Of a stretch of 38,979 nucleotides of DNA, positions 6,187-38,979 are shown one piece after another. The notes beneath the pieces are model-generated. The model did no database searches and had not been told where the DNA came from. It saw only the letters and a program-made list of their open reading frames with translations. The first letter of the stretch is position 1. Each line of letters opens with the position of its first letter. Source of the DNA: an uncultured Clostridia bacterium (GTDB lineage: Bacteria; Bacillota; Clostridia; Oscillospirales; Oscillospiraceae); NCBI GenBank assembly GCA_946412355.1, contig CAMKGX010000013.1, positions 1 to 38,979 on the forward strand. Reading direction: 5' to 3'. Position numbers and translations under genes: made by a program.

Positions 6187-6209
6187 GACGCACGTTCCTT
6201 TCTGTCTCT

Positions 6210-6445
6210 GAAAAAAGATGAACCCAGCGGGAATATTTTTCTCCCGCAAAACATAAACTAAAGTTTTTAAGAAGAAGTAGCAGTAGGGGATTTTATTGTG
6301 GAAACAGGGGACAAAGCCCCATGGCGCCACGGTTTTTTCTCCACAGGTCGGTGGGGAAGAAAACCCCTCTTTCCACACGGAAACCCCCCTCCCCCGGCTG
6401 TCCACAGCCTTTCCACGTGGAATCCACAGATGGTGTGGAAAAGGA
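6210..6445. other. Probable replication origin (oriC): DnaA boxes and AT-rich unwinding region
   Basis: Between dnaN and dnaA. TCCACA-core DnaA-box-like sites lie at 6296-6304 (minus), 6337-6345 (plus), 6370-6377 (plus), 6398-6406 (plus), 6420-6428 (plus) and 6434-6442 (minus, TTTTCCACA, one mismatch from TTATCCACA). A palindromic TTTCCACGTGGAA is at 6410-6422. An AT-rich stretch at about 6212-6300 borders them. It contains AAG-AAG-TAG-CAG-TAG at 6272-6286, followed by a GGGG and then the first box; read 3' to 5' this is GAT-GAC-GAT-GAA-GAA, like the DnaA-trio described for bacterial origins. Gene context and box clustering support an origin; function is inferred. Confidence 0.75.
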
Positions 6446-6473
6446 AGAGCGAAGAGGGAAAAGCAAAAACCTG

Positions 6474-6869
6474 TCACAGCCTTCCCACCAAGGGGAAGGC
6501 AGGGGCGAATAGATAAAACTTTGCACGGCCTTCCCCCTGGGGGAAAGGTACCCCAGTGCGCACACTGGGGGGAATGAGGGGGCGATTTTGAGGGAAGTTT
6601 CCGGTAGACGCCCCCTCATCCGTCACGGCCTACGGCCGTGCCACCTTCCCCCCAAGGGGAAGGCTGTGGCAATGACCGGGAACTTCCCGGGAAAACTCGT
6701 GCTCTCGTTGCGGCAAACCGATTTCCAGACCCTTCGGGCCGTGAAAATCGGGCCGCTGCCTTGCGGCGGGCACGCTTCATCCGCCACAGGCGGCGCTGTG
6801 CCCGCACGCCCCCTCATCCGCTTCGCTGCGCTCAGCACCTTCCCCCCAAGGGGAAGGCGGGTCGGTTGC
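6474..6869. repeat. Family II composite palindromic repeat (copy a, about 400 bp)
   Basis: Adjacent to the DnaA boxes on the dnaA side. Three GC-rich CTTCCC/GGGGAAGGC boundary stems occur (about 6479-6500, 6525-6548, 6643-6663) plus a final one at 6839-6867. Inside are a CCCCAGTG/CACTGGGG hairpin (about 6550-6569), complementary ATGAGGGGGCG and CGCCCCCTCAT arms, an ACGGCC/GGCCGT hairpin (about 6625-6640) and a 34-nt hairpin at 6718-6751 with outer arms CCGATTT/AAATCGG. Copies b, c and d elsewhere in the window share this backbone. Confidence 0.8.
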
Positions 6870-6872
6870 CTG

Positions 6873-8192
6873 TCACTTATGCGCGTTGATATTGGTGGTG
6901 ATCTCCTTCACCGTTTCGGCAAAGGCGGGGTCGGTGCGCATCTGCTTCTCCACCTTGTCCAGGCTGTGGAGGACGGTGGTGTGGTCCCGGCCGTCGAACT
7001 CCTTGCCGATTTCCTTCAGGGCCATGGAGGGGATCATCCGCCGCATGAGATACATGGCCACCTGCCGGGCGTTGGTCACGTCCTTGCGCCGCTCCTGGCC
7101 CCGGAGGGTGTCCTCATCCAGGTTGAAGAACCGGGCCACGCTCTGGATGACGTAGGTGGGGGTGATGTAGTCGTTGGCCTTGCGGACGGTGTCCATAATG
7201 GCCTTTTCCAGGGAGTCGGTGTCCAGCTGGTCCCCCAGCAGGTCCCAGTAGGCCAGAATTTTGTTGAGGATGCCCTCAATCTGCCGCACGTTGGCGGTGA
7301 CGTTCTCGGCGATGTAGTCCATGATCTCGTCGGTGAGGCTCATGCCCAGAATCTTGGACTTGTTGCGGATGATGGCCAGGCGGGTCTCGTAATCCGGCGG
7401 CGCCACGTCCGCCATCAGGCCCCATTCAAACCGGGTGCGCAGCCGGTCGTCCAGCAGCGACATCTCCCGGGGCGGCCTATCGGAGGTCATAACGATCTGC
7501 TTGCCCGCCTCGTAAAGGGTGTTGAAGGTATGGAAAAACTCGTTTTGCACCTGTTCCTTGCCGGCCACGAACTGAATATCGTCCACCAGCAGCATATCCG
7601 CGTCCCGGTACTTGGCCCGGAACTCGTCGCCCCGGCCGGAGCGCACCAGCTCAATGAACTCGTTGATGAACTCCTCGCCCTTGACGTACACCACCTTCAT
7701 GTCGGGGTGGCGGATGGGAAGCCGGTTGCGGATGGCGTAGAGCAGATGGGTCTTGCCCAGGCCGCTGTCGCCGTAGATGAACAGGGGGTTATATTTCTTG
7801 GCGGGCACCTCCACCACCGCCCGGGCGGCGGAGTAGGCCAGCTTGTTCTGGGGCCCGGCCACAAAGGTCTCAAAGGTGAAGGCGCTGTCGAAATCGCTGG
7901 AGGCGCCGGGGTGATCGGGCCGCACGCCGTGATAGGCGGCCAGCTGGGCGTCGTCCAGAATCTTGATTTCCATGCCCTGGGAAAAAATATTCTGGACGGT
8001 CATGTAGATAAAGGTGAGGAACTTGCGCTGGATCACGTCACGCTTGAAATCGTTGCCGCAGTGGAGCACGATGGCCTGATCCTCCACCGCCACGATTTTC
8101 ACCTCGTCAAACCAGGTGTTGATGGTGGTGGTGGACAGCTTCTCCTCCAGCACGGCCAATATGTTCTGCCACAGATCGGCCAGTGAGTTCAT
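6873..8192 (-). CDS. dnaA: Chromosomal replication initiator DnaA
   Basis: AAA+ initiator that binds DnaA boxes and melts oriC; 439 residues. Domain I (about 1-80) starts MNSLADLWQNILAVLEEKLS; the domain II linker is short. Domain III carries Walker A GDSGLGKTHLLYAI (near 142-155), Walker B DMLLVDDIQF, sensor 1 and the RTRFEWGL box VII arginine. Domain IV ends with the DNA-binding signature GRDHTTVLHSLDKVEKQM. The ATG at 8192 follows a strong AGAGGAGGG. A promoter with -35 TTTACG and -10 TATAAT lies 60-90 nt upstream. It is divergent from rpmH, the classic arrangement at Firmicute origins. Confidence 0.98.
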   Translation of the reverse strand: MNSLADLWQNILAVLEEKLSTTTINTWFDEVKIVAVEDQAIVLHCGNDFKRDVIQRKFLTFIYMTVQNIFSQGMEIKILDDAQLAAYHGVRPDHPGASSDFDSAFTFETFVAGPQNKLAYSAARAVVEVPAKKYNPLFIYGDSGLGKTHLLYAIRNRLPIRHPDMKVVYVKGEEFINEFIELVRSGRGDEFRAKYRDADMLLVDDIQFVAGKEQVQNEFFHTFNTLYEAGKQIVMTSDRPPREMSLLDDRLRTRFEWGLMADVAPPDYETRLAIIRNKSKILGMSLTDEIMDYIAENVTANVRQIEGILNKILAYWDLLGDQLDTDSLEKAIMDTVRKANDYITPTYVIQSVARFFNLDEDTLRGQERRKDVTNARQVAMYLMRRMIPSMALKEIGKEFDGRDHTTVLHSLDKVEKQMRTDPAFAETVKEITTNINAHK

Positions 8193-8250
8193 GTCCTACC
8201 CTCCTCTCGCCCCCCGCGGGGCACAGTCTCCTGCATGATACAATATAAAT

Positions 8251-8279
8251 ATTATAGCAAAAAATCCCCACGCCGTAAA
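8251..8279 (-). promoter_or_regulatory. dnaA promoter (sigma-A type)
   Basis: On the minus strand, -35 TTTACG (8279-8274) and -10 TATAAT (8256-8251) are 17 nt apart, in an AT-rich island (8236-8335) that stands out from the GC-rich surroundings. The dnaA ATG is 59 nt downstream of the -10. Confidence 0.65.
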
Positions 8280-8399
8280 GGGGAAAATGGGTACAATTAT
8301 TATAATAATGTATCGGGGGTTTTTGAGAGAAAGGAGAACAGTGAAGGGAAAGGGTGCCCGCTGGGCGGACGGATTGGAAACGGCGGACGGTGAAATATG

Positions 8400-9060
8400 G
8401 AGGCTGTTATCATTCACCCGACCCCGGCGGTGAACGTTACCGCATTGCGGGCCGCCGGTGGCGTCGGCCCCTACGGTGGTTGTCGATGCTGCACACCATT
8501 CATCCGCCCTTGGCGGAAATCATCACCTCGCTGAGGGCGATTCGTGAATCGCCCCTACGGTGTAATCATGGCGGCATCGGTTTTTTCGTAGGGGCGCTTC
8601 ATGAAGCGCCCGCAACGGCGGCGTGGCAGCGGAACGGCGTCGGTGGTTACGGAGGGTCACCCCTTTTTTCGTAGGGCGCGACGACCTCGGCGCGCCGTTT
8701 TCCCGGCGGCGGGTTTGCGGAAAGGCACCGTTGGTTGCGGTGGGGCGCGATAATATCCGTAGGGGCCGACGCCCCCGGCGGCCCGTTTCCCGGCGGAGGG
8801 TTTGATAAAAGGTGTCGTTGGCTGCGGCAGGGTCACCTGTTATTTCGTAGGGCGCGACGACCCGGCGCGCCGTTTGCACGGTTGTCGTTACCCATGTACC
8901 GTTTAACCAGCTTTGGCGGTCATCGTTACCCGGTCACGGGCCGCCGGGTCGTCGGCCCCTACGGTGGTTACCGTTGCCGTCTGCCATCCACCCGGGCTTG
9001 TTAATTATCGTTACCGCGCTTCGGGCGATTCGTGCATCGCCCCTACGGTTTTTATGCCAC
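8400..9060. repeat. Family I GTAG-hairpin block, eight modules
   Basis: The dnaA-rpmH divergent gap holds hairpins at 8448-8474 (c, minus), 8535-8558 (a, minus), 8588-8611 (b, plus), 8671-8696 (d, plus), 8759-8785 (c, plus), 8847-8872 (d, plus), 8937-8962 (c, minus) and 9023-9046 (a, minus, one unpaired change in the 3' arm). The a-to-c pairs are 86-87 bp apart. The flanks 8193-8400 and 9061-9270 hold the dnaA and rpmH promoters; I see no gene in the gap. Confidence 0.85.
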
Positions 9061-9513: not shown

Positions 9514-9858
9514 ATGAAAGCGTCTTGCACGGTGAAGGAAAACCACATCTTCCGCCGCATGTACCGCAAGGGCAAGTGCGCTGTGCGCAGCGGCGTGGTG
9601 GTGTACTGCGCCAAAACCAATCGCCCCCGCTGCCGCCTGGGCGTCACCGTCAGCACCAAAGTGGGCAAGGCGGTGGTGCGCAACCGGGTGCGCCGCCGGT
9701 TTCGTGAGCTGTTCCGGCTGCACGCCGGGGAGATAAAAGGCAGCTACGACGTGATTCTGGTGGGCCGGGGCCGCAGCGCCGACATGCCCTGGGCCAAGCT
9801 GGAGGGCCAGTATCTGGCCTGCCTGCGGGAGCTGGGCATGGTGGAGGACAGGCCATGA
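9514..9858 (+). CDS. rnpA: Ribonuclease P protein component
   Basis: Protein cofactor of RNase P, which trims 5' leaders from tRNA precursors; 114 residues. The RNR signature is clear: [20 protein letters not shown] near residues 48-67. The N-terminal substrate-binding part [14 protein letters not shown] and the [13 protein letters not shown] strand are typical. GAGGAGGAG lies before the ATG. The end overlaps yidD by 4 nt (ATGA), so yidD is translationally coupled. Confidence 0.96.
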
Positions 9859-10064
9859 AGCGCGCCCTCCTGATGCTCATCCGGTTCTACCAGGCCGCCG
9901 TGTCCCCCTTCACCCCGCCCCGCTGCCGCTATATCCCCACCTGCTCCCAGTACGCCCGTGAGGCCATTGAGAAGTACGGCGCGGGCAAGGGCAGCTATCT
10001 GGCGGCAAGGCGACTTTTACGCTGCCACCCGTTTCATAAGGGCGGCTATGACCCCGTTCCGTAA
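9855..10064 (+). CDS. yidD: Membrane protein insertion efficiency factor YidD
   Basis: A 69-residue amphipathic membrane-associated protein with the family pattern [35 protein letters not shown] and the C-terminal [16 protein letters not shown]. The conserved cysteines of YIPTCSQYA and LRCHPF are present. It sits between rnpA and yidC as in most bacteria and is thought to assist YidC-dependent insertion. The ATG overlaps the rnpA stop. Confidence 0.95.
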
Positions 10065-10274
10065 TTGTTACCCCGCATCTTTCGGATCTTTTGCGCCCCT
10101 GCTTCGTCCCTTCCCCTTGCCATACAGATAGTATGCCTGCGGGAAAGGGCCATCGCCGGGACACAAAATCTCTCGAAATCTGCTTTCGGATTTCCGGATA
10201 ATCTACGGATATAATTACGGAAAAATCGCATATTTCCCCTCAAAAAGTCAGTAAATTTACGGAGGAACCCCAAT
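10065..10274 (+). other. yidD-yidC gap with inverted repeats
   Basis: 210 nt without a gene. A long stem CCCTTCCCC.../...GGGAAAGGG spans about 10110-10149. A TATAAT at 10210-10215 could be a yidC -10, but I see no good -35 at 16-18 nt. The yidC ribosome site is ACGGAGGAA just before the ATG. Confidence 0.35.
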
Positions 10275-16839: not shown

Positions 16840-17465
16840 GAGGTGAATGGTAGGCGGTATCGACAACCGTTCGTAGGGCGGGACCTGCGTGTCCCGCCAA
16901 ACCCGGTACCGTCCACCGCCAAGGGCGGATGAATGGTGTGCGGCATCGACAACCACCGATACCCTTCATCATCTCCGCCGCCGGGCAAAGCGGGCGCTTC
17001 ATGAAGCGCCCCTGCAAAGAGAACCGATGCCTGTGATTTTACCGTAGGGGCGATTCACGAATCGCCCGCAGCGAGGTGATGATTTCCGCCAAGGGCGGAT
17101 GAATGGTGCGCGGCATCGACAACCACCGTAGGGGCCGACGCCCCGGCGGCCCGTACCCCGGTACCTCCCACCGCCAAGGCTGGATAAATGGTAAACGGCA
17201 TCGACAACCGTTCGTAGGGGCGGGGCTCTGCTCCGCCCTTTTCTCGTCAATTGCCGGGGTATTGGGCGGAGCAGAGCCCCGCCCCTACGGAGAAAATCGC
17301 ACCCGTGTGCAACCAACGACGCCTTTCATGAACCCCGCCGCCGGGAAAGCGGCGCGCCGGGTCGTCGCGCCCTACGAAATAACAGGTGCCCCTGCCGCAT
17401 CCAACGACACCTTTCCCGTCATCGCCAATCCGCAAGCGGGCGCTTTATGAAGCGCCCCTACGGAC
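16840..17465. repeat. Family I GTAG-hairpin block, eight modules
   Basis: Gap between hpf and the RND permease. Modules: 16873-16898 (e, plus), 16992-17013 (b, minus), 17044-17067 (a, plus), 17128-17153 (c, plus), 17214-17238 (f, plus), 17264-17288 (f, minus), 17350-17374 (d, minus), 17438-17461 (b, minus). Spacing a-c-f is 84 and 86 bp with the same linker (ending ...ACGGCATCGACAACC). No gene is supported. Confidence 0.85.
17214..17288. repeat. Inverted pair of class f hairpins (BIME-like), empty insertion site
   Basis: Two class f hairpins (arm GGGCGGGGC, loop TCT) face each other across a 25-bp spacer, making a 75-bp palindrome with GTAG at both outer ends. This is the uninterrupted counterpart of 36559-36689, where the same structure carries a 56-bp insertion in the left loop. 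Confidence 0.85.
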
Positions 17466-24000: not shown

Positions 24001-24192
24001 CCTGTCAAAAAACGGCTCCGCCGTTTTTTGACAATGGGATTGCAGTCTACTGCGCGCACGAATAGTGCGCCGGAGGCGCACTATTCGCACACTTCGTAGC
24101 CTGAGAAGTGAAAAAAGTGACGCGCATGTCGTCACTTTTTTCGGATTTCATGGGTTCGCGCCTGCGGGCGCGAAATCTGCGATGCTTTTTGA
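24001..24192 (+). repeat. Family III modular hairpin element (copy 1)
   Basis: Slot 1 is 24003-24033, arm TGTCAAAAAACGGC, loop TCC. Constant TGCAGTCTACTGCGCGCAC follows. Slot 2 is about 24059-24087, arm CGAATAGTGCGCC, loop GGA. Constant GCACACTTCGTAGCCTGAG follows. Slot 3 is 24110-24142, arm GAAAAAAGTGACG. Constant GATTTCATGGGTTCGCGCC and its complementary GGGCGCGAA arm end with ATCTGCGATGCTTTTT. Copy 2 at 30627-30857 has the same constant parts and different hairpins. Confidence 0.88.
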
Positions 24193-26259: not shown

Positions 26260-26660
26260 GCGCGGGCGGGTGGACGACAAACGGCATCGCCCGTCACCGT
26301 AGGGGCGCTTCAGGTCGCGCCCATAACCCGGTGGCGAATACCGCCAAGGCCGATTGAATGGCAAGGGGCATCGTCTATCACCGTAGGGGCCGACGACCCG
26401 GCGGCCCGTACCCAGGCCCGGCCCCCCGCCAACGCCGGGTGGATGGTACACGGTATCGGCACCCTACGAACATCATCGGCACCGCTCGCAACCAACGATA
26501 CCTTCCCAGGTGTTGCCGCCGCGGCACGGCGCGCCGAGGTCGTCGCGCCCTACGGCATAATCATAACGGCATCGGTTTTCTTTGTAGGGGCGCTTCGTGA
26601 AGCGCCCGTAACCCGGTGGCGAATACCGCCAAGGCCGGGTGAATGGCAAAAGATAACAAT
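26260..26660. repeat. Family I GTAG-hairpin block, four modules
   Basis: 26299-26322 (class i, arm GGGCGC with loop TTCAGGTC, plus), 26383-26408 (c, plus), 26527-26553 (d, minus), 26584-26607 (b, plus). Class i takes the place of class a, 84 bp before class c. Confidence 0.82.
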
Positions 26661-28500: not shown

Positions 28501-29979
28501 TTACTTTCGCATATTCTCATGGAACACCCGGAACGTCTCCAGATTTTCCGCCACCTTTTCGGGCCGCTGGATGTATTCCGTGGGGTACTTGGGGTGAAAC
28601 AGGCGCTCAATGTGCTGCCTGGGCCAATCCACCATCTTCGTGGAGCCGCCCGCCCCCAGGGACAGGATGCTGTGCAGCTCCTCCATGATGTAGATATTAT
28701 ATAGGCCCTCGCTGCCGGGTATGCACCAGCCTGTGTTTTCAAAGCTGCCGGACATGTACTTCTGCCGGTACAGGTAATAGGGCACGAAGCCGGCGGCGCG
28801 GAGGGTGGGATCGGCGTAGTCCAGCATGGCGGCCACGTCCTCCGCCGTGGGGATGGCAAGGCCCTCCAACAGAATCCGGCTGCCCTTTTTCAGCGACAGG
28901 GTGTGGACGGTGATATTGTCGGCGCCGTAGGAAAGGCACGCGTCCAGCGTGCGGCGGAAGCCGTCGGGGGTGTCCTCGGGCAATCCGGCAATTAAATCCA
29001 TGTTCACGTGGGGGAAGCCCAGCTCGGTGGCAAGGGCCATGGCGGCGCGGATCTCCTCCGCCGTGTGGCGGCGGCCAATGGCGGTGAGCACCTTGTCCTC
29101 CAGGCTCTGGGGATTGACGCTGATGCGGTCGATATTGTGCCGCAGCAGCACCAGCAGCTTCTCCCGGTCGATGGTGTCGGGCCGCCCCGCCTCCACGCAC
29201 CGCTCTGCGGCGTGGGTCAGGTCGAAGGAGCGCTCCAAATGGGTCAGCAGCCGGTCCATCTGTTCCGCCGAAAGGGTGGTGGGGGTGCCGCCGCCCATGT
29301 AGAAGGATTTGATCCGCAGCCCCGCCTGGGCCACCATGGCCCCGGCGGCGGTGATCTCGTTCATCAGCGCGGTGAGATAGGGCTCCATCAAATGGAACGA
29401 TTTGGCCACCGACTGGCTGACGAAGCTGCAATAGGCGCAGCGGGTGGGGCAAAAGGGAATGCCCACATACAGGCTGATGTCATTGGGCTGCAAGTCCGAC
29501 AGGGCCTTGCGGCCCGCCTGGGCCGTCTCGATGGCCAGGCGGCGGCGGGGGGCGGACACGCAGTAGGTATCCCGGAGGATTTTGTCCACCTGGGCCGGGG
29601 TTTTCCCGGCGGCCAGATATTGGCCCGCCAGCTTGCCGGGCCGGATGCCGGTCAACGCGCCCCAGGCGGGGGTCTGGCCCGTCACGGCCCGGGCGGCTTT
29701 GAAGAAGCTCAGTTTCACCGCCCGCTGCCGCAGCCGCTCCTGCTCGTATTCGTCGGCGGCGCCGTCAATGCGCACCCGGCTGACGCCCCGGCCCTCACGG
29801 CCCTCATAGCGGATGAGGGTGGTGGCGGTGGCGTAGGTTTTCCCCAGGGACAGGCGGACGTCCGCCTGGTTTTCCTCGGCGGCGTCGGGCTCATACACGG
29901 GCCGCTCCTGGGGGAAGAAGGCCAGCAGGCTCTGCTCCACGGCGTAGCGCTGGTCGTGTCCGGTAAAGATCAGTTTCAT
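28501..29979 (-). CDS. hemZ: Coproporphyrinogen dehydrogenase-like HemZ
   Basis: A 492-residue HemN-family radical SAM protein with the extra N-terminal domain (about 1-165) that marks HemZ. The cluster motif is IPFCPTRCAYCSFVSQ near 180, preceded by ISLYVG; MGGGTPTTLSAEQM, ISVNPQSLEDKVL and DLIAGLPEDTPDGF follow. Unlike HemW it has a long C-terminal region ending PEKVAENLETFRVFHENMRK. Firmicute HemZ is described as an oxygen-independent coproporphyrinogen III dehydrogenase candidate, though its exact reaction is not certain. It overlaps the MBL gene by 4 nt. Confidence 0.93.
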   Translation of the reverse strand: MKLIFTGHDQRYAVEQSLLAFFPQERPVYEPDAAEENQADVRLSLGKTYATATTLIRYEGREGRGVSRVRIDGAADEYEQERLRQRAVKLSFFKAARAVTGQTPAWGALTGIRPGKLAGQYLAAGKTPAQVDKILRDTYCVSAPRRRLAIETAQAGRKALSDLQPNDISLYVGIPFCPTRCAYCSFVSQSVAKSFHLMEPYLTALMNEITAAGAMVAQAGLRIKSFYMGGGTPTTLSAEQMDRLLTHLERSFDLTHAAERCVEAGRPDTIDREKLLVLLRHNIDRISVNPQSLEDKVLTAIGRRHTAEEIRAAMALATELGFPHVNMDLIAGLPEDTPDGFRRTLDACLSYGADNITVHTLSLKKGSRILLEGLAIPTAEDVAAMLDYADPTLRAAGFVPYYLYRQKYMSGSFENTGWCIPGSEGLYNIYIMEELHSILSLGAGGSTKMVDWPRQHIERLFHPKYPTEYIQRPEKVAENLETFRVFHENMRK

Positions 29980-30596
29980 AGGCCCATCCCCTGTCGCAGA
30001 TAGGGATTGTGCTGCCGCTCAAAGGCCAACGTGGTTTCCCCCTCGTGGCCGCAGAGGCAGCGGTAGTCGCCGGGGAGCTTGCCCAGCCGCCCCAGGGAGC
30101 GCAGCATGGCGGCATAGCTGCCGTCGGGGAAGTCCGTCCGCCCGCAGCTGCCCCGGAACAGGGTGTCGCCGCAGAAAATCACGCCGGGGCCCACGAGGCA
30201 CACGCTGCCGGCGCTGTGGCCCGGCGTTTCCAGCACGGTAAAGGTGACGTTTCCCACGGAAATCGTGTCCCCTTCCCGGTAAAACCGCTGGTTTTTGTCA
30301 CTTAACCGGGGGAATTTCAGCTCCCAGCCGCCGCCGGCGGGGGCGTTCACCACGTCGGCGGGATGGATGTACACCGGCGTATCGGGCCACTGTTCCAGCA
30401 GCCCCGCCACGGCGGTGCAGTGGTCAAAATGGCCGTGGGTCAGCCAGATGGCGGCCAGGGGGCAGCCGGTATTCCCGATGGCGGCGATGATGCGGCCCGC
30501 CTCGTCCCCCGGGTCCACCACCACGGTCTGGTTGCCGTGGGTGACGACGTAGCAGTTGGTCATAATGGGCCCCACCTGCAGCGATGTGATGGTCAT
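29976..30596 (-). CDS. MBL-fold metallo-hydrolase (YcbL / glyoxalase II-like)
   Basis: A 206-residue metallo-beta-lactamase fold protein with the metal motif THGHFDH (residues 54-60), the GHSAGSVC segment, GDTLFRGSCGRTD and the CGHE histidine. It resembles the short YcbL-type hydroxyacylglutathione hydrolase-like proteins often found between dtd and hemZ in clostridia. The substrate is not known. AAGGAGGA stands 6 nt before the ATG. It overlaps hemZ by 4 nt. Confidence 0.9.
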   Translation of the reverse strand: MTITSLQVGPIMTNCYVVTHGNQTVVVDPGDEAGRIIAAIGNTGCPLAAIWLTHGHFDHCTAVAGLLEQWPDTPVYIHPADVVNAPAGGGWELKFPRLSDKNQRFYREGDTISVGNVTFTVLETPGHSAGSVCLVGPGVIFCGDTLFRGSCGRTDFPDGSYAAMLRSLGRLGKLPGDYRCLCGHEGETTLAFERQHNPYLRQGMGL

Positions 30597-30626
30597 GGAG
30601 TGTCCTCCTTAACGCTTGGAATTGTG

Positions 30627-30857
30627 AAAAAAGCATCGCAGATTTCGCGCCCGCAGGCGCGAATCCATGAAATCAAAATTTCCGGCGGCGTGTACCCCAA
30701 GGGCACTGGCTCCACCAGCCGCTCATTCTTCGCGGGGTGTCGCTGGCGTACGTCGGAAATTTTACTTCTCAGGCCACGAAGTGTGCGAGCGTAAGCGAGT
30801 GCGCGCAGTGGACTGCAAGCCAACTATCGGAAAACGGCAAAGCCGTTTTCCGATAAG
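30627..30857 (-). repeat. Family III modular hairpin element (copy 2), with a 56-bp insertion
   Basis: Read on the minus strand: slot 1 at 30855-30825 (arm TATCGGAAAACGGC, loop TTT), constant TGCAGTCCACTGCGCGCAC, a short slot 2 (TCGCTTACGCTC), constant GCACACTTCGTGGCCTGAG, slot 3 arms CGGAAATTTT at 30763-30754 and 30684-30675 with the 56-bp element between them, then the constant GCGCGAA hairpin and ATCTGCGATGCTTTTT. Slot 1 starts 2 nt after the dtd stop codon. It separates dtd from the MBL gene. Confidence 0.88.
30693..30748. mobile_element. 56-bp loop-inserted element, copy C
   Basis: Begins TACCCCAAGGGCACTGGCTC and ends GTGTCGCTGGCG. It splits the loop of a hairpin with arms AAAATTTCCG/CGGAAATTTT. 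It matches copies at 36573-36628 and 36937-36992 except in a few central positions. No transposase is encoded; the ends TACCCC and GGGGTG can pair. Confidence 0.8.
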
Positions 30858-31304
30858 CTAAAGGTTGTCCGTGTCCACAATCAGGGTGACGGGGCCGTCG
30901 TTGCGGCTGTCCACCTGCATATCGGCGCCGAAGATGCCCGTCTCCACGTGGAAGCCCCGCTCCCGGCACCCGGCGATGAACCGCTCATACAGGGGAATGG
31001 CGGTGTCGGGCCGGGCGGCGCCCAGAAATTCGGGCCGGCGGCCCTTTTTGCAGTTGCCGTACAGGGTGAACTGGGAGATGACCAGAATTTCGCCCCCCAC
31101 GTCCTTCAGCCCCAGGTTCATCTTCTCGTTCTCGTCCTCGAAGATGCGCAGGCCCGTCAGCTTGTCGCACAGCTTGTCGCATTCCGCCTCGGTGTCGTTC
31201 ACGCCCACCCCCAGCAGAATGAGAAAGCCCTGTCCGATCTGTCCGTGCACCGCGCCGTCAATGGTGACGGAGGCGTGCTTCACCCGGGTCAATACCGCTC
31301 GCAT
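30858..31304 (-). CDS. dtd: D-aminoacyl-tRNA deacylase
   Basis: A 148-residue Dtd that hydrolyses D-aminoacyl-tRNA (and Gly-tRNA-Ala), protecting translation. The family motifs SQFTLYGN (residues 78-85) and NDGPVTLIVDT at the C-terminus form the chiral pocket. ATG 31304 has AAGGAG 8 nt upstream; the frame is open to 31397 but the extra part crosses the tandem hairpins. It sits downstream of rel in the usual clostridial order, but a 644-bp repeat block intervenes. Confidence 0.96.
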   Translation of the reverse strand: MRAVLTRVKHASVTIDGAVHGQIGQGFLILLGVGVNDTEAECDKLCDKLTGLRIFEDENEKMNLGLKDVGGEILVISQFTLYGNCKKGRRPEFLGAARPDTAIPLYERFIAGCRERGFHVETGIFGADMQVDSRNDGPVTLIVDTDNL

Positions 31305-31360
31305 AATGTGATCTCCTTGTGTTGTAAATAGTGAAATAGTCCGCCGGGGGGAGGAATAAT

Positions 31361-31460
31361 GAATTGCGCCAAAGGCGCGTGAATTGCCTGACGGCATGAA
31401 TTGTGCCTGACGGCATGAATTGTGCCTGACGGCACATGATTTGCGCCTTGCGGCACATTA
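31361..31460. repeat. Tandem short-hairpin array (five units)
   Basis: Units of 17-23 bp beginning GAATTG or GATTTG at 31361, 31381, 31398, 31417 and 31438, each with a small hairpin (GCGCC-AAA-GGCGC, TGCC-TGAC-GGCA and variants). The leading GAATTG is constant, while the hairpins vary in length. It lies upstream of dtd. Confidence 0.8.
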
Positions 31461-31948
31461 CATTGTAGGGGCCGACGACCCCTATGGTTTTGCACCGTAG
31501 GGGCGATTCACGAATCGCCCGCAGCCCGGTAACGAAAACCGAAAAGGTGGGGTGGATGGTAAAACGGTGTCGTCAACCACCGTAGGGGCCGACGACCCGG
31601 CGGCCCGCAGCCCAAGTGACGACCACCACCAAGGGCGGGTGGATGGCAAGCGGTATCATCAACCACCCGCAACCAACGATACCATTTATCATTACCGCCA
31701 GCGGGTACGGCGCGCCGAGTCGTCGCGCCCTACGGATTATTGTAACTGTCCGCAACCAACGGTGCCTTTCCGCAAACCCGCCGCCGGGTAACGGGCCGCC
31801 GGGGGCGGCGGCCCCTACAAAGATACTCGGCCCCTATGGTTTTGCACCGTAGGGGCGATTCACGAATCGCCCGCAGCCCGGTGACGAACAGCGAAAAGGT
31901 GGGGTGGATGGAAAACGGCGTCGTTATCCGCCGTTTTTGCATGACGGT
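31461..31948. repeat. Family I GTAG-hairpin block with a roughly 90-bp direct duplication
   Basis: 31465-31482 (class c, truncated, plus), 31497-31520 (a, plus), 31582-31607 (c, plus), 31708-31733 (d, minus), 31792-31817 (c, minus, perfect stem), 31849-31872 (a, plus). The stretch starting CCCCTATGGTTTTGCACC at 31480 is repeated at 31831 through GGTGGGGTGGATGG, 351 bp apart, with a few differences. Confidence 0.82.
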
Positions 31949-34165
31949 TTATCCCGCGGGTCTTGTCACCCGCATGATGCCCGGCACGCTCTCCAGCTTT
32001 TTCACCACGTTTTTCAGCTGCTCGTGGCCCGCCACCTCCACCTCCAGGTCCATGACGCCGTAGCCGTCGGGGGTGGACCGGGCGTTGAGGGAGCAGACCC
32101 GGGTCTTGGTGGTGCTCAAAATGGTGGACACGTCGGTGAGCATGCCGATGCGGTCCTTGGCCACCAGCTGCAACGTGGTGTGGTACGTCTCGGAGATGTT
32201 GTCGGCCCAGGTGACTTTGATCCACCGGCCCGCCTCCTCGGGCTTGCGCCGCTCGGGGGCGGCGTTGGGGCAGTCGGTACGGTGTACGGACACGCCGTAG
32301 CCACGGGTGATGAAGCCCACGATGTCGTCCCCCGGCACCGGGGAGCAGCACTTGGAGAACTTCACCAGACAGTTGGAAAGTCCCTCCACGATGACGCCGT
32401 GCTCGCCGCTGGATTTCCGGGGCACGGTGGGCTCGAAGATGGGGATGGGGCTGGCCTCCTCCGCTGTGGCCTCGCCGGTGTTCCGGTCGGCCTGGCGGGC
32501 CTCCGTCACCTTGCGGATCTCCTCCCGCAGCCGGCCCACCAGCTTCAGCGACGTGACGCCGCCGTAGCCGATGGCGGCATACATATCGTCCAACGTGTTG
32601 AAGCTGGTCTTTTTCAGCACCTGGGGCAGCATCTCCTCGGAGGTCATCTCCCGCAGGGTCACGCCGCAGCGCTTCAGCTCCGCCTCAAAGCTGGCCCGGC
32701 CGTTGACGATGTTCTCGTCCCGCTTCTCGTGCTTGAACCACTGGCGGATCTTGCTGCGGGCGTTGCTGGACTTGGCGTACTGCAGCCAGTCCCGGCTGGG
32801 GCCGTGGGCGCTCTGGGAGGTGGTGACCTCCACCACGTCGCCGTTGTGCAGCGGCGTGGTGAGCTGGGCGATGTGGCCGTTCACCTTGGCGGCCACCATG
32901 TGGTTGCCCACCTGGGAATGGATGGTGTAGGCAAAGTCGATGGGGGTGGCCCCGGCGGGCAGGTTGATCACATCCCCCTGGGGGGTGAACACAAACACCT
33001 CGTCGGCAAACATGTCCACCTTCAGGGAGTGGATAAAGTCCTCGGCGTCGGCGCCGTCCTGGTTTTCCAGCAGGCGGCGGACCCACTCGTAGCGGCTCTC
33101 GTCCCCCTGGCCCTGGCCCGCCTGCTTGTATTTCCAATGGGCCGCCACGCCGTACTCCGCGATCTCGTGCATCTCGTGGGTGCGGATCTGCACCTCGAAG
33201 GGGATGCCCCCCTCCCCCATCACCGTGGTGTGGAGGGATTGGTACATATTGGGCTTGGGGGTGCCGATATAGTCCTTGAACCGGCCCAGAATGGGCTTAT
33301 ATAAATCGTGGATGATGCCCAGCACGTTGTAGCAGTCCGCCACCGTGTTCACCAGCACCCTAAAGGCGATGAGGTCGAACACGTCGTCCAGGCTCTTGGC
33401 CTTGGAGTACATCTTGCGGTAGATGCTGTACGGGTGCTTCATCCGGCCGTACACGGTGGCGCCGGTGATGCCGGCCTCGGTGAGCCGGGTCTGGATCTGG
33501 GCCTGCACCCGCTCCATAAAGCCCTCGTACTCGGCGCTCTTGGCGCTTAAAGAGTCGATAATCTCCTGGTAGCCGGCGCCGTCCAGGTATTTCAGGCTTA
33601 AATCCTCCAGCTCCCATTTCATCTTCTGCATGCCCAGCCGGTGGGCGATGGGGGCGTAGATCTCCATGGTCTCGTAGGACTTCTGCTTCTGCTTGGCCGG
33701 GGTCTGGTACTCCATGGTGCGCATGTTGTGGAGCCGGTCGGCGATTTTGATGAGGATGACCCGGATATCCTTGCTCATGGCCATCAGCATCTTCCGCAGA
33801 TTCTCCATCTGCTCCTCTTCCTTGGAGGTGTACTGCACCCGCGTCAGCTTGCTGACGCCCTCCACCAGGTCCGCCACCGTGGGGGAGAACAGCTTTGCAA
33901 TGTCCTCGTGGGTGGCGTCGGTGTCCTCAATGGTGTCGTGGAGCAGGGCCGCCATAATGGACTCGCTGTCCAGATGCAGCTCCTCGGCCAGAATCTGGGC
34001 CACGTTGAGGGGATGGGTCACGTAGGGGGAGCCGTCCTTCCGCTTCTGCTGGCCATGGTGGGCGGCGGCGTACTCATAGGCCTGGCGGATGTGGGCAAAG
34101 TCCGCCCCGGGGTTGTAGCTGCGTATGGTGTCCTCCAAATGCTGATACATCTCGTCGGGTGTCAT
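31949..34165 (-). CDS. relA: Bifunctional (p)ppGpp synthetase/hydrolase Rel
   Basis: A 738-residue long RelA/SpoT homologue controlling the stringent response. The HD hydrolase (about 30-190) has HDTIEDT, KIADRLHNMRTM; the synthetase (about 240-370) has GRMKHPYSIYRKM, GTPKPNMYQSLHTTV and EVQIRTHEMHEIAEYGVAAHWKYK. TGS, helical, zinc-finger-like (CCSPVPGDDIVGF) and C-terminal ACT domains follow. Both catalytic centres look intact, so it should be bifunctional. AAGGAGG stands before the ATG at 34165, which overlaps recJ by 4 nt. In many clostridia apt lies between recJ and rel; here it is absent. Confidence 0.96.
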   Translation of the reverse strand: MTPDEMYQHLEDTIRSYNPGADFAHIRQAYEYAAAHHGQQKRKDGSPYVTHPLNVAQILAEELHLDSESIMAALLHDTIEDTDATHEDIAKLFSPTVADLVEGVSKLTRVQYTSKEEEQMENLRKMLMAMSKDIRVILIKIADRLHNMRTMEYQTPAKQKQKSYETMEIYAPIAHRLGMQKMKWELEDLSLKYLDGAGYQEIIDSLSAKSAEYEGFMERVQAQIQTRLTEAGITGATVYGRMKHPYSIYRKMYSKAKSLDDVFDLIAFRVLVNTVADCYNVLGIIHDLYKPILGRFKDYIGTPKPNMYQSLHTTVMGEGGIPFEVQIRTHEMHEIAEYGVAAHWKYKQAGQGQGDESRYEWVRRLLENQDGADAEDFIHSLKVDMFADEVFVFTPQGDVINLPAGATPIDFAYTIHSQVGNHMVAAKVNGHIAQLTTPLHNGDVVEVTTSQSAHGPSRDWLQYAKSSNARSKIRQWFKHEKRDENIVNGRASFEAELKRCGVTLREMTSEEMLPQVLKKTSFNTLDDMYAAIGYGGVTSLKLVGRLREEIRKVTEARQADRNTGEATAEEASPIPIFEPTVPRKSSGEHGVIVEGLSNCLVKFSKCCSPVPGDDIVGFITRGYGVSVHRTDCPNAAPERRKPEEAGRWIKVTWADNISETYHTTLQLVAKDRIGMLTDVSTILSTTKTRVCSLNARSTPDGYGVMDLEVEVAGHEQLKNVVKKLESVPGIMRVTRPAG

Positions 34166-36255
34166 CCGCGTCCGCCTCCTTTTCCCATGGTGTCAATGGA
34201 TAGCTGCTCTATGTAGGGGCACTGCTCCAGGTCGGCCCGGGCCACGTCGCCCCGGGTAATGGTGACGCTGTCCCGGTGGCGCTCCACCGTCAGCAGCCCC
34301 CGCTCCCGGAACACCTCCAGGCACAGCGCCGCCCGGCCGAAGGCGTCGGCCCGGCCCAGCCGCTCTGCCAGCTGCCGCAGCAGCGGCAGGTAGGCGCAGT
34401 CCAGAGGCCCGGCGGAGAGCCGGTGGTCGATACACCGCCAGGCGGCGGCGAAATGCTCCCGCCCCGGCAGCAGCCGCCGGGCGTCCCGGGCGGGGATGCG
34501 CTCACCGTCCAGCACCTGCTGCACCAGGGCCAGGGCCTCCATCTCCCGGGTGCTGGGGTTCACCGAGGGCCGGATGTCCACCATCTGGAGCTGCACGGTG
34601 CGTTTGCCCCGGAACTCGTTGACCTGTAAATAAAAGGCGGCGTCCACCCTGTCGCCTACGGCTACGCCGCAGTCCTCGGCAGTGGTGGAGAAGAAAATGC
34701 CGTCAAACTGGCTGCTGCCCCGGGTGAGCCGCAGCTTCAAATGCCGGTTCTGGCCCACGTTCTGGGTGCGGCTCAGCGTGGCGCCCCGCAGACAGAACAC
34801 GGGCCGGGGGTTGCCGGCGCCGTAGGGCTCCAGGGCGCTGAGGGCCTCCACCTCGGCCAAGGTCACGTCGCCGGGGCGCTGTATCACCATGTCCACGTCC
34901 AGTGACGACACCGGCGCCGCGCCGCCCCGGTAGGCGGCGGCATACTCGTTCATCCGCCGGCGGAAAGCGGGGATGTTCTTCTCCTCGATGGTGAAGCCCG
35001 CCGCCAGCTCGTGGCCGCCGAAGCCCAGCAGCAAATCGGAGCAGCTCTCCAGGGCGGCAAACAGGTTGAAGCCCCCCCAGCTGCGGCAGGAGCCCTTGCC
35101 GGTGGCGCCGTTTAAGTGGATCATAAAGCTGGGCCGGGAGTATTTCTCGCTGAGGCGGGAGGCCACAATGCCCACCACGCCCTGGTGCCACCGCTGGTCG
35201 GACAGCACCAGCGCGCTGCGCAGGTGCTCCGGCATGGCGGCGATCATCTCCTCGGCCTGGGTGTAGATGGTCTGCTCCACGTTCTGCCGCTCCCGGTTCA
35301 GGTCGCACAGGGCCCGGGCCATCTCGGCGGCCTTCACAGGGTCGTCGCACAGCAGCAGGTCCGCCGCCATGTCCGCCTCCCCCATCCGCCCGGCGGCGTT
35401 GATGCGGGGGGACAGCACGAAGCCGATCTGCACGGAGGTGATCTCTTTTTTGTCCAGTCCCGCCTCCGCCAACAGGGCGTGGAGGCCGATGAAGTCGCTG
35501 CGCTCAATGGACGCCAGGCCCCGGGACACGATGGTGCGGTTCTCGCCGGACATCTGCATCACGTCCGCCACCGTGCCGATGGCCGCCAGGGTGCAGTAGC
35601 GGGAGAAGAGAGCCTCCTCCCTGTCGCTGCCCCCCAGGGCCAGGGCCAGCTTCAGCGCCACGCCGCAGCCCGCCAGGTGCTTGAAGGGATAGGGGCAGTC
35701 GCTGCGGTGGGGGTCGATCACCGCCGCCGCGGAGGGCAGGGTGTCCTTGCACTCGTGGTGGTCGGTGATCACCACGTCCATGCCCACGGACTTGGCGTAG
35801 TCCGTCTCCTCCACGCCGGTGATGCCGCAGTCCACCGTCACCAGCAGCTTCACGCCCTGGCGGCGGAGGGTGTCGATGGCGTCGCAGCTCAGGCCGTAGC
35901 CGTCCTCGATGCGGCGGGGGATGTAGTGCACCACGTCGGCGCCACGGCTTTTGAGATAGTCCACCAGGATGCAGGTGGCGGTGATGCCGTCCACGTCGTA
36001 GTCGCCGTAAATGGCGATTTTCTCCCGATTGGCAAGGGCGTCGTTGATGCGCGCCACCGCCTTGTCCATGTCCGCCATCAAAAAGGGGGAATAGGTCAGG
36101 CTGGTCTCCTGCTCCAAAAAGGCGGCGGCCGCCTCCGGCGTGGTGATGCCCCGTGATACCAGCACGCCGCTGACAAGATAGGGATAGCCCGCCGCGCGCA
36201 GGGCGTCAATGGCCCCCTCGTCCACCTCCGGGGTCTGCCAGAGCTCATATTTCAC
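34162..36255 (-). CDS. recJ: Single-stranded-DNA-specific exonuclease RecJ
   Basis: A 697-residue 5'-3' single-strand exonuclease for recombination and mismatch repair. DHH motifs are visible: GDYDVDGITATC (near 88), TVDCGITG, VVITDHHECKD and CGVALKLALAL. The DHHA1 motif GFGGHELAAGFT follows, then an OB domain and a C-terminal extension of about 130 residues. The start is GTG at 36255 with GGGAGGTGA 7 nt upstream. The open frame back to 36915 only translates repeats. The rel start overlaps its end. Confidence 0.94.
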   Translation of the reverse strand: MKYELWQTPEVDEGAIDALRAAGYPYLVSGVLVSRGITTPEAAAAFLEQETSLTYSPFLMADMDKAVARINDALANREKIAIYGDYDVDGITATCILVDYLKSRGADVVHYIPRRIEDGYGLSCDAIDTLRRQGVKLLVTVDCGITGVEETDYAKSVGMDVVITDHHECKDTLPSAAAVIDPHRSDCPYPFKHLAGCGVALKLALALGGSDREEALFSRYCTLAAIGTVADVMQMSGENRTIVSRGLASIERSDFIGLHALLAEAGLDKKEITSVQIGFVLSPRINAAGRMGEADMAADLLLCDDPVKAAEMARALCDLNRERQNVEQTIYTQAEEMIAAMPEHLRSALVLSDQRWHQGVVGIVASRLSEKYSRPSFMIHLNGATGKGSCRSWGGFNLFAALESCSDLLLGFGGHELAAGFTIEEKNIPAFRRRMNEYAAAYRGGAAPVSSLDVDMVIQRPGDVTLAEVEALSALEPYGAGNPRPVFCLRGATLSRTQNVGQNRHLKLRLTRGSSQFDGIFFSTTAEDCGVAVGDRVDAAFYLQVNEFRGKRTVQLQMVDIRPSVNPSTREMEALALVQQVLDGERIPARDARRLLPGREHFAAAWRCIDHRLSAGPLDCAYLPLLRQLAERLGRADAFGRAALCLEVFRERGLLTVERHRDSVTITRGDVARADLEQCPYIEQLSIDTMGKGGGRG

Positions 36256-36282
36256 GGCCGCGTCACCTCCCTCGCCGTAGAG

Positions 36283-36310
36283 ATAATAATTCAGATACAA
36301 TATATCACAA
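36283..36310 (-). promoter_or_regulatory. recJ promoter
   Basis: Minus strand -35 TTGTGA (36310-36305), 16-nt spacer, -10 TATTAT (36288-36283), in a short AT-rich island. The GTG start is 28 nt beyond the -10. Confidence 0.55.
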
Positions 36311-36572
36311 AATCCCGGCGGCGTAAAGGGAGGATTTGTACCCGCCGCCAATTCCCGCCGCCGTAACAAACGGCCGCCACGATTACACCGTAGGGGCGAT
36401 TCACGAATCGCCCGCCGCCCAGGTAACGAAAACCGCCTGTCCGGATGAATGGCACACGGCAACGACCCCACCGTAGGGGCCGACGCCCCGGCGGCCCGTA
36501 CCCCGGTAACGAAAACCACCCGGGCCGGTTGGATGGTACACGGCATCGACAACCATGCGTAGGGGCGGGGCT

Positions 36573-36628
36573 TACCCCAAGGGCACTGGCTCCACCGACT
36601 GCTCATTCTTCGCAGGGTGTCGCTGGCG
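36573..36628. mobile_element. 56-bp loop-inserted element, copy A
   Basis: Inserted after GGGGCT in the TCT loop of a class f hairpin. Comparison with the empty inverted pair at 17214-17288 shows a clean insertion: removing 56 bp restores GGGGCT-CTGCTCCGCC. It starts TACCCCAAGGGCACTGGC and ends GGTGTCGCTGGCG. Confidence 0.85.
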
Positions 36629-36707
36629 CTGCTCCGCCCTTTTCTCGTCATTCGCCCCGGCCACGGGCGGAGCAGAGCCCCGCCCCTACAAATTATTCGT
36701 CCCCCCC

Positions 36708-36874
36708 GCCTTCCCCTTGGGGGGCTGTGCCCGAAGCGCCGCCGGCGGCGGATAAAGCGAGGGCACAGCCAGGCAGCGGCCCGGTTGCCATGGCCCAACG
36801 GGCCTGGGAACCGGATGCCGCAACGTGGGCAAGAGGTGTCACGGCCTGTAAAGGCCGTGACGGATGAGGGGGCG
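36708..36874. repeat. Family II composite palindromic repeat (copy d, minus orientation)
   Basis: Reverse of copy c: GCCTTCCCC, then a perfect GGCTGTGCCC/GGGCACAGCC stem with inner CGCCGCC/GGCGGCG, the 34-nt hairpin with CCGGTT/AACCGG arms, ACGGCC/GGCCGT, and GATGAGGGGGCG at the end. The outer GGCTGTGCCC stem is perfect here and has one mismatch in copy c. Confidence 0.85.
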
Positions 36875-36936
36875 ACGACCGCCCGGGCGGGTTGAATGGT
36901 GTGTGGAAACGACAACCATGCGTAGGGGCGGACGCC

Positions 36937-36992
36937 TACCCCAAGGGCACTGGCTCCACCATCCGCTCATTCTTCGCGGGGTGTCGCTGGCG
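36937..36992. mobile_element. 56-bp loop-inserted element, copy B
   Basis: Same ends as copies A and C, inside the loop of a class g hairpin (GGGGCGGAC...GTCCGCCCC). Length is 56 bp in all three copies; the centre differs (ATCC here, GACT in A, AGCC in C). Confidence 0.8.
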
Positions 36993-37180
36993 CTGTCCGC
37001 CCCCTGTGCGTCAACCACCTTGGGCTGGGGAAGACAGAGTCGTCCTCCCCTACGAACAAAATCCTGCCCCTCGCAACCCCGCCAACCGGCAAGGCGGGAC
37101 ACGTAGGTCCCGCCCTACGGTCTCATTGTGCCTCGTCCCAATGGGCGAAACGCTTTTCCCTCTCCCCCTTCCCCGAACGC

Positions 37181-37214
37181 AAAAAGAGAACCCGCTTTCG
37201 CAGGTTCTCTTTTT
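37181..37214. terminator. Bidirectional terminator after the AtoE-family gene
   Basis: 12-bp stem AAAAAGAGAACC with its complement, 10-nt loop and T-runs on both strands. It is 26 nt downstream of the stop on the minus strand. Confidence 0.92.
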
Positions 37215-37240
37215 GTTCAAATGGGATGTTTGGGGATGAA

Positions 37241-38599
37241 TCAGAAGAACATACCCCAGGCCAGGAAGCCCAGCACGGCTACAACGCCGGTGAACAGCAG
37301 CACGATGACCAGATAACCCATGACGTCGCGGGCGCTCAGCTTGGCGATACCCAGAGCAGGCAGAGCCCAGAACGGCTGGATCATGTTGGTCCACTGGTCG
37401 CCCCAGGCCACCGCCATGGCGGTACGGCCGGCGTCGATGCCCAGAGCGGCACCGGCGGGCATCATGATGGGGCCCTGGACGGCCCACTGGCCGCCGCCGG
37501 AGGGCACGAAGAAGTTGACGATACCGGCAGCCAGGAAGGACAGCATGGGGAAGGTGATGCCGTTGGAGATGCTGACAAAGAACTGGGAGATCACGCCGGC
37601 CAGAGACACGCCGTCCACGTTCTTGGCGGTCATCAGGCCCATGATACCGGCATAGAAGGGGAACTGCAGCAGCACGCCGGCGGCGCCCGCGGCGGCCTCG
37701 CCGATGGCGTCCACGTAGCGGCGCAGGTCGCCGTGGAGCAGGATGCCCAGGAACAGGAAGATGAAGTTCACGATGTTCAGGCCCAGGGAACCCTTCTCAA
37801 TGAAGAAGTAGTGAATGATGTAGGCCAGGCCCATCACCACCAGGATGACCCACAGGATCTTGGAGTGCTCCATCTTGTCGGCGGGGGTGTCCACCTTGTA
37901 CTCGCGCTCGGCCTCATCCTTCAGCAGGGAGGGATCGATGGTGACGGTGTGGTCCTTGTCGGGATGCATGGCGTAGTTGACGAAGGGCATACCCACCAGG
38001 ATCACGGCGCACATGATCAGGTTCATGGGGTGCAGGATGGTGGCGCTGATGGGGGCCTGATACAGCACCTCACCGAAGGTCTTGCCGGCCACCAGGTCCA
38101 GGGGGATGGAGCCGGACAGGCCCGCGTGCCACACCACGAAGCCGGAGTAGGCGGAGGCGATCAGCAGGGGATAGTCCACGCTGGGCACCCGGCGCACAAC
38201 CTCCTTGGCCAGCAGCGCGCCGATAACCAGGCCGAAGCCCCAGTTGAGCCAGCAGCAGATGGTGGACACGAAGGTGGTCATCAGGATGGCGTGCATGGGG
38301 GTGCGGCACATGCCGGCCAGGGTGCGCAGCAGGGCCTTAAAGGGCTTGGCGGAGGCGCAGGCGGAGCCCAGCACCAGCACCAGGGCCATCTGCATGGAGA
38401 AGCTCAGCAGGCTCCAGAAGGTGGAGTTGCCGCCCCAGGCGGTGATCAGGTCAGGCTGACTGGCGGAGAACACGGGCAGACCCGTGGCGGCCAGGGCGCC
38501 GATAAAGACCACGAAGGTCAGGATGACTGCGAACAGAAAAGCGTCCGGCAGCCAACGGTTGACTACGCGAACGCAGCCGTTGGTGAATTTCTTAAACAT
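37241..38599 (-). CDS. AtoE-family short-chain fatty acid transporter
   Basis: A 452-residue, 10-12-span carrier of the AtoE/TIGR00366 short-chain fatty acid transporter family. The start FTNGCVRVVNRWLPDAFLFAVILTFVVF is typical, followed by WGGNSTFWSLLSFSMQMALVLVLG, WLNWGFGLVIGALLAKEV and the signature FFVPSGGGQWAVQGPIM near 360 and WGDQWTNMIQPFWALPAL near 405. Transport of acetoacetate, butyrate or related acids is inferred; the substrate is not known. GAGGAG stands before the ATG at 38599. It is monocistronic between its promoter and terminator. Confidence 0.9.
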   Translation of the reverse strand: MFKKFTNGCVRVVNRWLPDAFLFAVILTFVVFIGALAATGLPVFSASQPDLITAWGGNSTFWSLLSFSMQMALVLVLGSACASAKPFKALLRTLAGMCRTPMHAILMTTFVSTICCWLNWGFGLVIGALLAKEVVRRVPSVDYPLLIASAYSGFVVWHAGLSGSIPLDLVAGKTFGEVLYQAPISATILHPMNLIMCAVILVGMPFVNYAMHPDKDHTVTIDPSLLKDEAEREYKVDTPADKMEHSKILWVILVVMGLAYIIHYFFIEKGSLGLNIVNFIFLFLGILLHGDLRRYVDAIGEAAAGAAGVLLQFPFYAGIMGLMTAKNVDGVSLAGVISQFFVSISNGITFPMLSFLAAGIVNFFVPSGGGQWAVQGPIMMPAGAALGIDAGRTAMAVAWGDQWTNMIQPFWALPALGIAKLSARDVMGYLVIVLLFTGVVAVLGFLAWGMFF

Positions 38600-38690
38600 G
38601 ATTCACTCTCCTCGTAATTTTCAGACGGTGGCCGTCTGTGGTCAAGCCCGCAGCTCCCCTACGGAAATTGCGAACTTTTTAACGATGCCC

Positions 38691-38719
38691 ATTATAATAC
38701 GCCGGAGGCGGAAAAGGAA
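38691..38719 (-). promoter_or_regulatory. Putative promoter of the AtoE-family gene
   Basis: Minus strand -10 TATAAT (38696-38691), 17-nt spacer, weak -35 TTCCTT (38719-38714). The leader is about 85 nt. Confidence 0.5.
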
Positions 38720-38814
38720 ATCGGAAAATTGCCGAATTTTTAACACATTAACTGTGCAGTACGCACAAAATTGCCAAATTTGTCCGTCAAAATGGGAACG
38801 ATGGACGATGAAGC

Positions 38815-38979
38815 GCCAAAAACGGCGCGCCCTACGCATTGCCCCGCCCTTCCGCAACCCCGCCAACCGGCAAACGGGCGCTTCATGAAGCGCCCCTACG
38901 GAGAAACCGATGCCGCCACGATTGCACCGTAGGGGCGATTCACGAATCGCCCGCCGCCCAGGTAACGAGAATCACCCAG
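38815..38979. repeat. Family I modules at the right edge
   Basis: A class d remnant at 38823-38835 whose whole apex is lost (GGCGCGCC then CTAC), class b at 38876-38899 (minus) and class a at 38929-38952 (plus). The block continues beyond the window. The part 38720-38815 is AT-rich and holds nothing recognisable. Confidence 0.78.

Follow-up and report, generated by a model that had tools for sequence, protein, structure and literature searches.

A 56-bp double-hairpin unit at the tips of many different host hairpins in uncultured gut Clostridia

Introduction

Bacterial genomes are often full of small palindromic repeats. The window described here, a stretch of 38,979 nucleotides of an uncultured bacterium of the Oscillospiraceae (contig CAMKGX010000013.1 of assembly GCA_946412355.1), bears on how these spread, through a unit of fixed length that occupies several host hairpins, can be traced across close relatives and has exact empty sites. 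Such a unit lets one ask directly whether the tip of a hairpin is sufficient as a target and which process copies 56 nucleotides there. Insertion of DNA guided by shape instead of sequence, if true, would be new and possibly useful. The carriers belong to one genus of uncultured gut bacteria, and the unit is present dozens of times in some of their genomes.

The unit and its host hairpins in the window

A preliminary description of the window had noted three 56-bp copies with common ends, which split the loops of three separate hairpins. This is borne out: all three, on the plus strand, begin with TACCCC and end with GGCG. The first copy (36573..36628), a variant with GACTGC/GCAG, lies between the left arm GTAGGGGCGGGGCT (36559..36572, plus strand) and the right arm CTGCTCCGCCC (36629..36639, plus strand) of a class f hairpin, whose ortholog in the related genome G040 is empty. 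The second (36937..36992) separates the arms of a class g hairpin (36922..36936 and 36993..37003, plus strand). The third (30693..30748) is situated in the slot-3 hairpin of a family III element, between arms at 30675..30692 and 30749..30763 (plus strand). The element that holds it (30626..30864, plus strand, boundaries approximate) is wholly lacking at the orthologous site in G003, G023 and G040.

Family III is a mobile multi-hairpin element, about 180 bp long without the unit, seen in the window at 30626-30864 and in locus L061 at about 1430-1665. The sequence of its stems varies between copies while their pairing is kept, and no Rfam match was found for it. In the window it has TTGT on both sides.

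The two class f hairpins at 17214..17238 (plus strand) and 17264..17288 (minus strand) both equal the class f host minus exactly 56 bp, and the earlier view of this pair as a natural empty site is correct. An empty site for the third host also lies within the window, a family III slot-3 hairpin on the minus strand at about 24110..24143 (GACGACATG/CGCGTC, the slash marking the junction). Hairpins carrying a GTAG tag, of at least six stem classes, form dense clusters at 498-9046, 16873-17461, 26299-26584, 31465-31849 and 36390-38929.

Filled and empty sites in related genomes

Syntenic sequence in G003, G023 and G040 matches the window at about 94%. Around the empty G040 ortholog of the first copy (36573) the left flank matches at 75/80 and the right flank at 29/31 positions, until the flanks diverge. 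A filled site of G003 (C15:78895) is empty in G040, with matches of 137/150 on the right and 11/11, falling to 22/30, on the left. A class b unit of G040 is lacking in G023, where the right flank matches at 74/80, the left at 55/80, and one base differs at the tip.

An automatic ortholog screen took in 203 of 214 copies, namely those flanked on each side by 100 bp or more, and the majority of copies have no ortholog among the fetched loci. Five passed, one of which (L261) was a self-match and was dropped. Three filled/empty pairs are clean, with 20/20 matches at the junction: L061/L087 (2401 bp, 94.8%), L067/L185 (1491 bp, 91.8%) and L266/L272 (1467 bp, 90.3%). The fourth, L084/L132, is weaker, with 16/20 at the junction and 46 gaps. 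At the 20/20 junctions of the three clean pairs there is neither a target-site duplication nor any added base. The exact unit is therefore present or absent at orthologous sites with unchanged flanks and without target duplication. The proposal that a non-coding 56-bp unit was cleanly inserted into pre-existing hairpins is upheld by these orthologous sites and by the many different hosts.

The L061 locus is found in three states: in G003 and G040 it consists of 21 bp, in G000, the source genome of the window, of family III, and in G023 of family III plus the unit. The flanks of the L061 unit match the empty G000 ortholog at 84/89 and 89/89 positions, as against about 69/87 and 78/89 for the best of the other filled copies. 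Since the flanks match the empty ortholog and not other filled copies, the 56 bp move by themselves and no long conversion tract is involved. The three states would also be explained if the composite had inserted whole and G000 had then lost exactly the 56 bp.

Size and distribution of the family

A 50-nt core pattern, allowing up to 3 mismatches, finds 27 copies in G000 (2.06 Mb, 92 contigs) and none when read backwards, showing that the family is not due to chance. A covariance model finds 56 matches there, including one cut by a contig end, one weak match (35 bits) and four on the near-identical contigs C44 and C51. On the latter two, one pair of units recurs at almost matching coordinates (9660-10259 and 9666-10265, respectively), and the contigs are possibly a duplicate assembly.

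Genus-wide there are at least 259 model matches, in 12 of the 32 genomes examined. The numbers per genome are at least 69 (G040), 56 (G000), 51 (G023), 36 (G003), 15 (G007), 11 (G046), 7 (G041), 5 (G011), 4 (G002), 2 (G020), 2 (G001) and 1 (G024); they are lower bounds because at most 150 candidates were scored per genome. No match was found in 294 other genomes of the order under stricter filters, which recover only 19 of the 56 matches in G000. In a scan of sequence collections, the matches listed were Oscillospiraceae or Ruminococcaceae records, many of them from goat stomach. The unit pattern does not occur in the viral contigs searched, and phages and plasmids gave no unit match at 1e-5. 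The length is highly constant: 199 of 213 sequence-distinct copies in the fetched loci, a number that leaves out five more cut by a locus end, are exactly 56 bp long.

Fold of the unit

The unit folds into a short hairpin (columns 3-5/9-11) followed by a long hairpin (columns 14-33/37-54). Among 45 distinct sequences, 97.4% of the cells in this structure are paired. Changes on both sides of a pair occur at 7 of 17 pairs, a number reached in 6 of 500 shuffles, whereas partners slid out of register give 0-2 such pairs. There are 54 cells changed on both sides as against 13.8 in shuffled alignments, and the covariation score is 0.226 as against 0.099. The number of base-pair types (11) is not above that in the shuffles (12.1), 479 of 500 of which are as high. 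The compensatory changes among the 45 copies show that the fold is conserved, but the short helix has no change on both sides and the covariation thus supports the long helix only. Distant copies swap whole helices, for example CCTTTGT/ACAAAGG.

Read on the minus strand, the unit would form helices containing two tandem GA/GA mismatches, with a GNA-like tip, and the bases concerned are invariant. One reading frame of the unit is open, but the changes track base pairs, and a coding role is unlikely. Rfam models gave no match to window positions 29000-38979 at E values up to 1. The unit thus consists of two adjacent hairpins, is non-coding and is dispersed, as is characteristic of double-hairpin elements.

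Position at the hairpin apex

When the unit is removed, 172 of 210 copies with flanks leave a stem with a score of at least 6 that closes on the junction; three of the 213 copies were dropped for short flanks. The same score is reached at 9.9% of random positions, at 10.4% of positions shifted by 12-26 nt and in 28% of cases when the flanks of two different copies are joined, the last figure being high because the flanks are GC-rich and repeated. A stricter score, used first, gave 141/210 as against 4.4% for random positions and 19.3% for mismatched flanks. It missed class e, for which reason the loop limit was loosened. Inspection by eye of the 38 low scorers showed 13 with arms of the same family containing mismatches, 11 with arms of two families, 10 off the apex, two in tandem and two truncated.

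The hosts with the unit at the apex, as judged by eye, include five GTAG-tagged classes (f, g, e, b and d), slots 3 and 1 of family III, class X (CATCCGCC/GGCGGCG) and the hosts of L109, L095, L099/L199 and L252/L253. Off-apex positions are found in the CGGATTG/CC repeat (L213, L209 and L258, with the unit reversed in L206 and probably in L260), in GTAGGGG/CGAGACC (L096 and L108), in family III seven bases away from the tip (L254), and in L252 at 5090 and L253 at 7374. In L213, L209, L258 and L206 the off-apex host is a CGGATTGCC...CTCGCAATGAC repeat, which apparently holds the unit in both orientations.

A hand count gives about 12 families or slots with the unit at the apex as against about five off-apex contexts, the families being counted by eye and five of them sharing the GTAG tag. 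The binomial probability of about 12 apex contexts in 17 is 3.8e-9 for a chance rate of 0.10, and 2.2e-4 and 0.011 for assumed rates of 0.27 and 0.40. Of 214 copies, 125 have GTAGG within 20 nt of the unit to its left alone and five have it on both sides; none has it to the right alone. Where the tag is present, the unit has a single orientation relative to it.

The preliminary description asked whether all copies lie at hairpin apices and held that the target is a structure, hosts being alike in shape and not in sequence. An apex position holds for the 172 copies that leave a closing stem but not for the off-apex contexts. The claim of a structural target is favored by the approximately 12 apex families or slots and weakened by the approximately five off-apex contexts, one of them seemingly in both orientations; selective amplification of insertions at the apex could lead to a like distribution. 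The hosts are many and different, as had been claimed, but most copies are not independent insertions, and in 20 of 210 the two arms come from different families.

Spread of the unit among its hosts

Copies with identical cores lie in the same host class in 78.6% of 304 pairs, as against 18.4% after shuffling (highest shuffle 31.2%). Identical units thus keep their host class, implying that the hairpin and its insert spread as a composite. Most copies look like products of such spread, transfer from one host family to another being rarer. Nevertheless, 5 of 17 shared cores are each spread over two or three host classes, among which is the unrelated class X, and transfer between hosts has therefore been recent. 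In 168,859 bp of the source genome, chosen for holding copies, 81 empty hairpins of six classes were counted and 20 units, showing that the hosts are far from full.

Search for an enzyme and a parental element

The 18 bases at the 5' end of the unit, allowing up to 2 mismatches, occur at 56 places in the source genome. At 54 of these a model match starts; the other two (C34:12040 and C42:17856, with 2 mismatches) are not starts of model matches. None of the places in this genome begins a longer element of the kind that the preliminary description proposed to look for.

No transposase common to the carriers was found in the two families tested, PF01797 and PF02371. The former (Y1) was detected in G000, G003, G011, G024 and G040 and not in G001, G002, G007, G020 and G023, the ten carriers examined. 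Of the negative genomes, G023 and G007 have 51 and 15 unit copies and a completeness of 96%. PF02371 (IS110, DEDD) was found in 2 of 12 carriers, G000 and G040, and not in G003, G023 or G007. Four Y1 and two IS110 loci that were examined have no adjoining GTAGGG hairpin of the host classes.

Several known element types fit poorly. There are no fixed bases to the left of the unit, the left flanks ending in CT, CC, AC, TG, CG, CA or GA; this speaks against an IS200/IS605 derivative, which would insert after a fixed short sequence. The rarity of the DEDD transposase among carriers speaks against a derivative of IS110/IS1111. The unit is not a MITE, having no terminal inverted repeats (TACCCC... 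at one end, CGCCAGC... at the other when reversed) and no target-site duplication. Nor is it a REP of the GTAG family: it starts with T/C/G-A/G-CCCC, has two hairpins and lacks a GTAG tag at its foot, the tag belonging to five of the host classes.

How the unit may reach new hosts

Copying of the unit into hairpin tips is the simplest model to account for the apex position, the exact ends, the absence of duplication, the fixed polarity and the unrelated hosts. New host families would be reached when the unit is copied into the unpaired tip of an extruded or single-stranded hairpin, which may arise, for instance, at a replication fork. The copying agent would be either an enzyme or a process of replication or repair. 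Once filled, the host hairpin would spread together with its insert and the host repeat, and recombination inside the common 56 bp may occasionally join the arms of two host families. We give about even chances to the reading that the unit is a double-hairpin mobile element, non-autonomous and non-coding, which reaches new hosts through unpaired hairpin tips. Structure-directed insertion is the best reading of the cross-family transfers. In its broad form, that an undiscovered structure-guided process inserts the unit, with fixed strand polarity, at the tips of practically all hairpins that are extruded or single-stranded, irrespective of their sequence, the proposal is tentative, and it is with the same reserve that the target of a mobile element might be said to be the shape of DNA (or RNA).

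The main rival, which we hold to be rather unlikely, is random or weakly selective insertion followed by survivorship, in which only apex insertions multiplied because these alone keep the host stem whole. Repeat families do make up most of the hosts, the core variant goes closely with the host class, and off-apex contexts are found in few copies (e.g., L096/L108, L206, L209, L213, L254, L258 and L260), all of which would be expected from it. However, an apex hit would have had to precede amplification in each of at least 12 host families or slots, and some hosts (those of L109, L095, L099/L199 and L252/L253) have one or two copies only. Moreover, the ortholog pairs represent gain or loss in a host copy already in place, not amplification.

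It is improbable that the unit was ancestral in the composites and that the empty sites arose by exact loss, through hairpin deletion during replication, together with gene conversion within a class. The copies with arms of two families are consistent with recombination inside the unit, and the linkers of class f are themselves repeated. A single ancestor, however, cannot give the same unit in unrelated hosts, and empty hairpins outnumber filled ones in the 168,859 bp surveyed. A conversion tract is absent from the flanks of both L061 and L067, and the ends of the unit, on inspection of the sequence, lack the direct repeats that slippage would need.

That the unit is left over from a transposon of known type, be it IS110/IS1111, which is known to enter REP hairpins, or IS200/IS605/RAYT, is very improbable. 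Passages of PMC1525189 and PMC3733652 describe IS elements of several families entering REPs and RAYT-linked REPs that the GTAG-tagged hosts resemble, and the orientation of the unit is fixed relative to GTAG. Against this, PF02371 is confined to two carriers and PF01797 is absent from half of those examined, while the six Y1 and IS110 loci have no host-class hairpin beside them and the left flank of the unit has no fixed bases.

Least credible is a functional module of RNA or DNA, such as a protein-binding domain, selected at hairpin tips and only incidentally mobile: compensatory changes keep its fold, and its minus strand has invariant bases at the GA/GA mismatches and the GNA-type tip, but its presence differs at the same site between close relatives, 20 of 32 genomes of the genus have no match and Rfam gave none for window positions 29000-38979.

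Relation to known repeats

The REP/BIME repeats, as treated in passages of PMC3733652, resemble the system in that five of the host classes here are GTAG-tagged and paired head to head. The 56-bp unit differs from them in being untagged, in having a conserved two-hairpin fold and in sitting at the tips of hairpins from many host families, some of them untagged. In addition, some of its carriers lack any match to a Y1 transposase. The same passages place the REPs of three species inside other palindromes, which is the closest bacterial parallel to one palindrome lying inside another. TnpA-REP enzymes, according to part of PMC8266576, act on single-stranded hairpins with a strand preference. The elements IS1397, ISKpn1 and IS621 likewise use a hairpin repeat as a target, at a fixed point (PMC1525189, in part); they carry genes and enter one REP consensus, whereas the unit has no gene and many hosts.

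The palindromes of Volvox organelles, in the passages of PMC2670323 that concern them, are about 50 nt long and often inserted into one another, and no enzyme is named there. They differ from the unit in lying in organelle DNA, in being AT-rich in mitochondria and in having other loop sequences, and those passages describe no fixed 56-bp unit with unrelated hosts. Mitochondrial double-hairpin elements (repetitive hairpin-forming elements) are similarly small, non-coding, hairpin-forming and dispersed, but are mitochondrial, and apex targeting is not described in the relevant part of PMC2800124.

A fixed structured unit common to many host hairpins was not found described in the open-licence PMC literature. 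The small dispersed repeats of cyanobacteria treated by Elhai et al. in 2008 are reportedly also very small and mobile and without a known enzyme.

Mixed-arm and tandem copies

In L036, L048, L116, L031, L060, L069 and others the left arm belongs to one family and the right arm to another, an arrangement that recombination within the unit would produce. Several copies of this kind are close to the end of a contig (e.g., L044, L055 and L082) and may be assembly chimeras; the filled/empty ortholog pairs do not depend on such copies. In L050 (at 1697 and 1754) and L072 (at 188 and 245) two units are arranged in tandem, with one C between them, within a single class b loop.
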